Source of the DNA: Roseiflexus sp.
GTDB taxonomy: Bacteria > Chloroflexota > Chloroflexia > Chloroflexales > Roseiflexaceae
Direction: 5' to 3'
Assembly (NCBI GenBank): GCA_025062325.1
Contig: JANXAL010000050.1
Span: 1 to 43,466, forward strand
Length of the DNA stretch: 43,466 nucleotides
Notes under the pieces: model-generated
Seen by the model: the letters and a program-made list of their open reading frames with translations, nothing else
Told to the model about the DNA's origin: nothing
Databases searched by the model: none
Translations under genes and position numbers: made by a program
Shown: positions 35,171-40,164 of the stretch, one piece after another
Layout: each line of letters opens with the position of its first letter
Numbering within the stretch: position 1 is the first letter of the stretch

Positions 35171-35206
35171 GAACGTTGAACGTTCAACGTTGAACGTTCA
35201 ACGTTC
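35171..35206. repeat. 36-bp perfect palindrome of AACGTT units
   Basis: The block is an exact palindrome built from five AACGTT hexamers alternately joined by GA and CA steps. It begins four bases after the phosphohexomutase stop and 15 bases before the tRNA promoter. It has no T-run and so is not a classic terminator, although it can form a hairpin. Confidence 0.8.
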
Positions 35207-35273: not shown

Positions 35274-35358
35274 GGGGACGTGGCGGAATTGGCAGACGCG
35301 CAAGTCTTAGGAACTTGTGGAGCAATCCGTGAGGGTTCGAGTCCCTCCGTCCCCACCA
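35274..35358 (+). tRNA. tRNA-Leu, anticodon UAG
   Basis: The acceptor stem GGGGACG pairs with CGTCCCC, followed by A and an encoded CCA. The anticodon stem CAAGT/ACTTG holds the loop CTTAGGA, giving anticodon UAG. A long variable arm follows, and the T arm is GAGGG-TTCGAGT-CCCTC, as in class II tRNAs. Leu tRNAs with this anticodon read CUN codons. Confidence 0.95.
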
Positions 35359-35476: not shown

Positions 35477-35505
35477 TTGACTTACCTAGGCGGAGCCTCT
35501 ATAAT
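35477..35505 (+). promoter_or_regulatory. Strong sigma-70-type promoter upstream of the SWIM gene
   Basis: TTGACT at 35477-35482 and TATAAT at 35500-35505 with a 17-base spacer give a near-consensus promoter. Transcription should start near 35512, about 200 bases before the SWIM-gene ATG. Confidence 0.8.
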
Positions 35506-35511
35506 GCTGGC

Positions 35512-35643
35512 AACCAGTTAAGATTGTGAATTATATCGCAGCATCCAACGAGGAATGCTGGCCATGCGAAGCAAAATGCCAGTCGGATATGGAACAGCCT
35601 GAGGCGGCGCGGACGTGCATTCGTCTGTGCCGCTTCAGTTTTT
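35512..35643 (+). ncRNA. Candidate small RNA or attenuator leader
   Basis: The predicted transcript from the promoter at 35477 would run about 130 bases to a strong terminator at 35599-35643. The upstream part has two competing short stems that share CTGGC: CAGCAT/ATGCTG and CTGGC/GCCAG (about 35554-35584). No open frame of note lies inside. It is either a stand-alone small RNA or a leader controlling the SWIM gene that starts 69 bases after the T-run. I do not recognise a known RNA family. Confidence 0.55.
35599..35643 (+). terminator. Very strong intrinsic terminator hairpin
   Basis: A 17-bp stem (35599-35615 against 35622-35638) has no mismatches, three G-U pairs and a six-base loop, followed by TTTTT at 35639-35643. 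Its 5' arm CTGAGGCGGC is 9/10 identical to CTGAGGAGGC at 35697-35706, which contains the ribosome binding site of the downstream gene. Confidence 0.85.
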
Positions 35644-35711
35644 GCGCAAGGCGCGGAAGACGGGCAAAGCCGCAACGGCTTGCCTGTGAGCACTAGCTGA
35701 GGAGGCAGGGT

Positions 35712-36254
35712 ATGCTCTCGGATTTGATCGGGAAGATCGAGAAGGCCCGGCGCTACGCGGCGGAACCGGAACGCATCGCTCTCGACGAGATCACGGTTCA
35801 CTTCAACGGCAGCAACAATGAGCACACTATTCGGCTCGTGCAGAGTCGTTGGGCCTGCGATTGTGAAGTGTTCCATCTGCGCGGCGTGTGCGCACACGTG
35901 ATGACGCTGCAGAAAGTGCTGGCGCCGATGCTGTCGGCGGAGGCGCGTGAGCCGGGTCCGATCATCATCCATTCCGAACTGATCAGCATGATCGAGAAGT
36001 CGCGCCGCTATGTGCATGAACTGGATCGGATTGAGATCCAGGCGTTGCGAGCACGCTTCCATGGCACTAACAATGACCATATCCTGGCGTTGACCGAAAC
36101 CGGTTGGTCGTGTGATTGTTCGACGTTCCGCGTGTGGCATACCTGCGCCCACGTGATGGCATTGCAGCGCATTCTGGCGCCGATGTTGCCGGCTATTGCC
36201 CGTGAGCCGGGCGCGGTTTCTGTTGAGGAACATCTTGTCAGCGCGTTGAGCTAA
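35712..36254 (+). CDS. Small protein with two tandem SWIM-type zinc fingers
   Basis: The 180-residue protein is a clear internal duplication. Residues 1-80 and 86-165 each contain an ARRY/SRRY helix and a strand, then CxC...CxH: Cys49, Cys51, Cys60 and His62 in the first half, and Cys134, Cys136, Cys145 and His147 in the second. A shared AHVM(T/A)LQ(K/R)(V/I)LAPML tail follows each. CxCx(n)CxH is the SWIM zinc-binding pattern, usually a nucleic-acid or protein-binding element inside larger proteins. Here the fingers stand alone. GGAGG at 35701-35705 is well spaced from the ATG. The function is unknown. Confidence 0.8.
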   Translation: MLSDLIGKIEKARRYAAEPERIALDEITVHFNGSNNEHTIRLVQSRWACDCEVFHLRGVCAHVMTLQKVLAPMLSAEAREPGPIIIHSELISMIEKSRRYVHELDRIEIQALRARFHGTNNDHILALTETGWSCDCSTFRVWHTCAHVMALQRILAPMLPAIAREPGAVSVEEHLVSALS

Positions 36255-36275
36255 CTCCCGAGTGCGGCCACCGTT

Positions 36276-36310
36276 CCCCGCTCCGCCGCCAGGAGCGGGG
36301 ATTTTGTTGT
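36276..36310 (+). terminator. Intrinsic terminator after the SWIM gene
   Basis: Perfect 9-bp arms CCCCGCTCC (36276-36284) and GGAGCGGGG (36292-36300) are followed by ATTTTGTTGTT. It separates the SWIM gene from the glycerophosphodiesterase gene. Confidence 0.8.
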
Positions 36311-36326
36311 TACGAGGAAAGATGCT

Positions 36327-37061
36327 ATGACTCTGGTGATTGCTCATCGCGGCGCGTCAGCATATGCGCCGGAGAACACGCTGCGTGCATTTGAGCTTGC
36401 TGTTAGGCAGGGCGCCGATATGTGCGAACTCGATGTGCAACGCACCGCTGATGGCGTTCTGGTAGTGTTTCACGATGATACGACGGCGCGCTGGGAGGCG
36501 AGAGGACGACCCGTGGCGCGCTGCACGCTTGCCGAGCTGCGACAGCTCGACATCGGCGGCGAGCGCGTGGCGACTCTGGCAGAGGTGTGCGCCTTTGCCC
36601 GCGAATGCGGAATACAGTTGAATGTTGAACTGAAAGCGCGCGGCATCGGCGCTGAGGTGGTGCGCCTCTTGCGCCGCGAACGGGTGTCCGATCAGGTGCT
36701 GCTTTCCTCATTCTGGGACGAAGCGCTTGCAGAAGTGGCGGCAGTTGCGCCCGACCTGCCGCGCGCTCTTCTGATGGGCATCCCCACGTTTCGTCTCGAT
36801 GTGCGCCTGCGCGAAAGCTGGCCCTTCCTGGACCTCAAACGGGTTGGTGCGGTCGCCTGGCACCCTGCCTGCCAGATTCCATTGCTGGATCACGTGCTGC
36901 CGATTGTGCGTCGTGCCGGGTATCGCGTGCATGTTTGGACGATCAACGATCCCGAAGAGATGCGTCGATTTTTGAGGCTTGGCGTGGATGGCATTATGAC
37001 CGATGTCCCTGATGTGTTACGACGGATTATCGTCATGTCATCGAATGAAAACTTGACGTAA
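36327..37061 (+). CDS. Glycerophosphodiester phosphodiesterase family protein
   Basis: A 244-residue GDPD with the standard N-terminal IAHRGASAYAPENT (His7, Arg8), the ELDVQRTADGVLVVFHDD metal/catalytic segment, a central NVELKA strand, and the C-terminal VHVWTINDPEEM and GIMTDVPD. It hydrolyses glycerophosphodiesters to an alcohol and glycerol 3-phosphate. No signal peptide is seen, so it is probably cytoplasmic. AGGAAAG precedes the ATG. Because of the terminator before it, it may have its own promoter, or be reached only by read-through. Confidence 0.9.
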   Translation: MTLVIAHRGASAYAPENTLRAFELAVRQGADMCELDVQRTADGVLVVFHDDTTARWEARGRPVARCTLAELRQLDIGGERVATLAEVCAFARECGIQLNVELKARGIGAEVVRLLRRERVSDQVLLSSFWDEALAEVAAVAPDLPRALLMGIPTFRLDVRLRESWPFLDLKRVGAVAWHPACQIPLLDHVLPIVRRAGYRVHVWTINDPEEMRRFLRLGVDGIMTDVPDVLRRIIVMSSNENLT

Positions 37062-40130: not shown

Positions 40131-40164
40131 GCGTGGGTTGAACGTTTGATATTCAACCCACGCT
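40130..40164. terminator. Bidirectional terminator between rmlA and glpX
   Basis: Perfect 13-bp arms AGCGTGGGTTGAA (40130-40142) and TTCAACCCACGCT (40152-40164) with a nine-base loop overlap the stop codons of both convergent genes. There is no long T-run on either side. Confidence 0.7.

Follow-up and report, generated by a model that had tools for sequence, protein, structure and literature searches.

How does RNA polymerase reach a gene when a strong intrinsic terminator stands between its promoter and its start codon? The question is raised by a SWIM zinc-finger gene in the window analysed here, a stretch of 43,466 nucleotides from Roseiflexus sp. (contig JANXAL010000050.1). The original prediction had described a near-consensus promoter, an uninterrupted 17-pair hairpin with TTTTT, and a good ribosome-binding site (RBS) and ATG ahead of the gene, and all of these are present. 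It had explained them by a leader switch in which the 3' arm of the terminator pairs with the RBS of the SWIM gene, and had overlooked a 12-codon in-frame upstream ORF (uORF) with its own Shine-Dalgarno (SD) sequence between promoter and terminator.

Layout of the SWIM leader

The features of the leader and the gene are as follows:

35477-35505, + strand: sigma-70-type promoter TTGACT-17-TATAAT, matching 11 of 12 consensus bases
35550-35554, + strand: SD sequence GAGGA of the leader ORF, from the sequence and from recurrence of SD and ATG in relatives
35564-35602, + strand: leader ORF (uORF), MRSKMPVGYGTA followed by a stop, 12 codons, from reading-frame tests in relatives
35600-35602, + strand: uORF stop TGA, within the outermost pairs of the terminator stem
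35599-35643, + strand: intrinsic terminator, 17-pair stem plus T5, arms 35599-35615 and 35622-35638, covarying in relatives
35699-35706, + strand: SD sequence GAGGAGGC of the SWIM gene, from the sequence
35712-36254, + strand: SWIM zinc-finger gene, ATG at 35712, 180 aa, two tandem SWIM units (CDC...CAH twice)
36275-36305, + strand: ordinary terminator behind the SWIM gene (control), its stem beginning 20 nt past the last base of the stop codon

Transcription is expected to start near 35512, and the terminator lies 70 bases upstream of the SWIM start codon. The region held two promoter-like sites against 0.7 expected, and the leader folded with an energy of -93.3 kcal/mol (z = -5.1 against shuffles). 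Just past the expected transcription start lies GTTAAG (35517-35522), which recurs in Roseiflexus, Chloroflexus and other relatives, and is followed in the group of leaders named after its uORF start MGAK by CCCCTTAACC; it could be an operator or a 5'-end element.

The neighbourhood of the leader showed several further features. A tRNA-Leu gene (anticodon TAG, 35274-35358) lies just upstream in Roseiflexus and near relatives. Palindromic GTTGAACGTT repeats at 35171-35206 and 40137-40146 lie right after a phosphomannomutase-like gene, with five matches in the window against 0.02 expected. Downstream of the SWIM gene is a glycerophosphodiester phosphodiesterase-like gene (MTLVIAHRGASAYAPENT, 36327-37061), which follows it in relatives too (loci L038, L042, L051 and L057).

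The terminator hairpin and its possible partners

The terminator stem (35599-35638) comprises 17 consecutive pairs, 14 Watson-Crick and three G-U, of which 11 are G-C, around a loop of 6 nt, with an energy of -32 kcal/mol, and TTTTT follows directly 3' at 35639-35643; a scan of the region returned nine terminator-like sites against 1.5 +/- 1.2 in shuffles. Covariation, the absence of which the original prediction had named as its refutation, was found in relatives, where both sides had changed in 7 of 12 consensus pairs. The GC-rich stem, the T tract and the preservation of the stem by covariation are those of an intrinsic terminator.

The resemblance of the terminator arm to the RBS is real in this genome: the terminator arm CTGAGGCGGC and the RBS region CTGAGGAGGC differ by one base, and the 3' arm could pair with the latter at 9 of 10 positions (-17.8 kcal/mol). 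In the five nearest relatives, however, the match falls to 8, 7, 6, 7 and 7 of 10, and thus appears essentially private to this genome. Across 63 leaders, native arm-RBS pairs reached -11.1 kcal/mol against -10.8 kcal/mol for swapped ones, and on average 50% of the swapped partners paired at least as well as the native one; moreover, the hairpin itself outcompetes pairing with the RBS. Sequestration of the SWIM RBS by the terminator 3' arm, or action of a leader small RNA on its own RBS, is therefore hardly credible; such an RNA is not needed, and the pairing is not conserved. Two short stems sharing CTGGC had also been suggested to exclude each other, and while the CTGGC/GCCAG pairs can be drawn for this genome, the one at the uORF start is disrupted in two relatives (L004 and L005). 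Of the predicted leader switch, the RBS-mimic mechanism fails the comparison of native and swapped pairs, but it is very likely that transcription ends prematurely in the leader and that this is governed by events upstream of the hairpin.

A short ORF followed by a terminator makes up the usual parts of a classical attenuator or riboswitch, in which a ligand or a stalled ribosome favours an antiterminator. Leader segments pairing with the terminator 5' arm beat shuffles (p<0.05) in only 1 of 63 leaders, the Roseiflexus group had no significant conserved upstream structure, and Rfam at gathering score returned tRNA matches only and no leader family (riboswitches, T-boxes or others). As the uORFs of the different groups share no regulatory codon either, such an alternative structure seems very improbable. 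Conservation of an upstream hairpin in the Chloroflexus group was borderline (0.045). An upstream CCCC/GGGGG pairing considered in the MGAK group was rejected, L056 and L057 keeping the G-run without the C-run. Promoter-like sequence between the terminator and the SWIM gene was not above chance (1.6% vs 2.2% in shuffled sequences).

Reading frame of the uORF

For class Chloroflexia, the reading frame was examined in a nonredundant set of 63 leaders. The uORF start was picked by an SD sequence and start codon in a fixed window before the stem, blind to stops, and a stop was called early when it lay >6 nt before the stem; control frames were counted from codon 2, since ATGA at the start codon inflates early stops. 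Eight loci of genus g8 (tRNA-Leu type), four Dehalococcoidia-type loci that do not belong to the class, and further loci whose hairpin was unclear were left out by hand beforehand; another five had no start by the automatic rule.

The uORF frame contained no early stop (0/63), whereas the other two frames had 14 and 20 (Fisher 3e-7) and shuffling of the ORF gave a mean of 21.8. A stop stood at the stem base in 33 of 63, compared with 7 and 6 in the other frames (9e-10) and a mean of 5.5 (maximum 14) after shuffling; these p-values are optimistic because the relatives are not independent. The remaining uORFs end within the hairpin (10/63) or run through the terminator (20/63), so that the ORF reaches the stem in every leader, with a start-to-stem distance of 37.1 +/- 4.0 nt. 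At 28-45 nt before the stem, 34 of the 63 relatives have an ATG preceded by an SD of 5 nt or more, against 0.9 expected, and a promoter matching at least 10/12 bases lies ahead of the uORF in 75% of the 63, against 0.4% of shuffles. The SWIM genes' own terminators in the same loci served as a control for the distance from stop to stem: at least 17 nt separate the stop of the gene from the stem that follows it in 50 of 51 loci, which marks the contact of stop and stem as special to the leader. Given a footprint of 12 nt and an A site occupied by the stop codon, a ribosome that has reached the end of the uORF would mask a mean of 85% of the terminator 5' arm, and no less than 40% in any of the 63 leaders. 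At one locus (L154) the uORF starts 126 nt before the SWIM start and passes through the terminator in frame into the SWIM gene, and read-through could therefore give an N-terminally extended protein.

The encoded peptide behaves differently from the frame. pN/pS of codons 2-11 was 0.91, 1.26 and 0.87 in three groups, and in the Chloroflexus-like group 0.17 in the first half and 2.5 in the second, although so few sites were available that the counts are rough; the low value of the first half is as expected near a start site. No regulatory codon, arrest-peptide motif or residue common to the uORFs of all groups was found. From these substitution patterns, the uORF frame is kept and the peptide sequence is not.

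The uORF and its terminator might instead be an independent gene for a small protein or small RNA, with SWIM transcribed by constitutive leak and the closeness of stop and hairpin reflecting economy of space. Such a gene would have its own promoter, RBS and terminator, as seen here, and within groups the uORFs share short N-terminal stretches (MGAK..., MKTCVT... and MRIxxPVEY). Yet a pN/pS of about 1 overall, rising to 2.5, is not that of a maintained product, ordinary genes in the same loci hold their stops off the stem, and passage of the ORF through the terminator in almost a third of leaders would truncate the mRNAs of a real product. We regard this explanation as unlikely, though it is the strongest of the rivals.

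We consider it likely that transcription through the leader is attenuated under ribosome control, the terminator being blocked by the translating ribosome itself, as happens in the pyrBI operon of Escherichia coli. This reading is supported because the frame is open up to the hairpin, the peptide is not kept, an antiterminator and a second promoter are lacking and the stem covaries; it draws further support from the restriction of model matches to the SWIM gene and from recurrence of the layout in other classes, as described below.

Distribution of the SWIM gene and its leader

Among the genomes of the order, 71 of 82 carry the SWIM gene, as do 126 of 150 in the class and 157 of 201 sampled across the phylum, mostly in one copy. 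The upstream DNA was inspected at more than 100 SWIM loci. Most of class Chloroflexia shares the same order of promoter, SD sequence, short ORF starting 32-41 nt before the stem, hairpin with T-rich tail, and SWIM gene. In a covariance-model search of 82 whole genomes, each genome with a strong match (E below 1e-5) had a single one, next to the SWIM gene, and neither a strong copy elsewhere nor one in a genome lacking SWIM was found; because many of the matched sequences built the model, it is this absence of other strong copies that is informative, and it also speaks against an independent small gene.

In most Chloroflexales the terminator reads GGCGGCRCAGG...CCTGYTGCCGCC with a bulged T, and in other orders it is quite different (GAGCACC...GGTGCTC and others) while the layout stays, and the layout thus outlives the sequence. 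Across Chloroflexales the terminator is conserved beyond what pairing needs, and the start context of the uORF is strongly conserved within groups, as would be expected if the SWIM protein bound the leader at the hairpin or the uORF start and lowered uORF translation or stabilised the terminator. Binding of RNA by this protein is purely hypothetical, however, and the protein is conserved in other orders and classes where the terminator sequence is wholly different, so that we hold autogenous control to be quite improbable as an explanation of its own; it could instead be an added input to attenuation by the translating ribosome.

From the other classes of the phylum, 38 SWIM loci were fetched, and in 23 of them a promoter-like sequence and then a strong terminator precede the gene. 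An SD-led start lies in the right place in 17 of these 23, one of which (L186) stops early (p = 0.04), and in two loci without a strong SD (L169 and L197) ATG-led frames end in the stem, as judged by eye. The frame evidence is weaker here than within the class, and several SWIM loci of these classes have no terminator at that place, so that the evidence for a layout with leader ORF outside class Chloroflexia is suggestive only. The device is also dispensable, since in genus g8 (L017, L021 and L023) the SWIM gene sits directly behind tRNA-Leu and its terminator, with no uORF. The gene immediately ahead of SWIM in Dehalococcoidia-type genomes has a leucyl-tRNA synthetase-like C-terminus (L070:417-3255); this neighbour and the tRNA-Leu of Roseiflexus may be a coincidence or a hint at SWIM function.

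The SWIM protein

The CxC...CxH ligands C49, C51, C60 and H62 are invariant, and a conserved helix, MxSxxIxKIEKARRYA, precedes the zinc finger. The best score against Pfam PF04434 was 19.2 (11.2 for the protein of the window), below the gathering score of 19.6, and the protein is thus SWIM-like by pattern and below the curated cut-off. No relative was found in the PDB by sequence, Foldseek gave no match with E below 0.6 (model pLDDT 82.8), and NCBIfam returned nothing usable. The SWIM unit is tandem-duplicated in Roseiflexus and some relatives and single in most of the phylum.

Discussion

All the parts of a leader-peptide attenuator are present at this locus, namely a promoter, a short ORF with RBS, an intrinsic terminator and a gene with no other promoter, and in 63/63 leaders the ORF reaches or passes through the terminator, whose 5' arm a ribosome could cover. 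RNA polymerase starting near 35512 would first transcribe the RBS and start codon of the uORF and then the strong terminator. A ribosome finishing the uORF, its A site occupied by the stop codon at 35600, would hold most of the terminator 5' arm in its footprint, the hairpin would be blocked and polymerase would continue into the SWIM gene; if the uORF were not translated in time, the hairpin would form and transcription would end at about 35643.

We infer the direction, in which translation turns SWIM on, from published experiments with terminators next to a stop codon, and the dynamics are likewise our reconstruction. Shifting a stop codon to a position 5 bp ahead of a terminator lowered termination in E. 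coli from about 90% to under 10%, an effect abolished without translation (PMC4824070), and a ribosome moving through pyrL blocks the pyrL terminator likewise (PMC5021804). Since the translating ribosome silences the terminator in both cases (PMC4824070, PMC5021804) and would cover a mean of 85% of the arm here, translation of the uORF should turn SWIM on. On the other hand, a ribosome is unlikely to catch up with polymerase in the first 100 bp unless polymerase pauses (PMC4824070), and because this very short uORF lies so near the start of transcription, a pause may be needed.

The layout is ancient, probably a pyrBI-like attenuator on a short ORF, and is deeply conserved in Chloroflexota. 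A bolder and distinctly tentative idea is that it forms a phylum-old, ligand-free translation gauge in most Chloroflexota, in which a sequence-indifferent mini-ORF senses the pacing of ribosome and polymerase and gates a near-universal SWIM protein acting in transcription-translation coupling or stress response. The device is tied to one single-copy gene present in most Chloroflexota; the leader gives a first handle on the role of the SWIM protein, and makes transcription-translation coupling open to simple tests beyond the standard model bacteria.

To our knowledge, direct occlusion of a terminator by the ribosome is known chiefly from pyrBI. A description of this SWIM leader element was not found in the literature searched, nor is it covered by Rfam, and the layout appears undescribed although its principle is known from E. 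coli. The trp, his and leu attenuators likewise place a leader ORF and a terminator ahead of a gene, but these amino-acid attenuators keep the terminator >20 bp from the leader stop (PMC4824070) and depend on regulatory codons and alternative antiterminators. The SWIM leader was found to have none of these three features, nor the conserved arrest motif of erm-type leaders. The antibiotic-responsive attenuators of Listeria rli80/hflXr share uORF-dependent premature termination, with an ORF of about 14 codons, but rely on a stalled ribosome, a predicted antiterminator and an RLR peptide motif (PMC6310831), which are absent here. In the Sinorhizobium duf1127 leader, attenuation also hinges on uORF translation, but it is probably Rho-dependent and of opposite sign, translation promoting termination (PMC12218461).

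The closest likeness is to pyrBI, where a ribosome on the leader ORF (pyrL) directly prevents an intrinsic terminator that lies within that ORF (PMC4824070, PMC5021804). pyrL is 135 bp long with UTP-sensitive pausing, whereas the SWIM uORF has about 12 codons with a stop usually at the stem base, and the gene controlled here is unrelated. The SWIM leader would thus carry the logic of pyrBI in a distant phylum, where geometry is conserved in place of sequence, with a start 37 +/- 4 nt before the stem and a stop at the stem.
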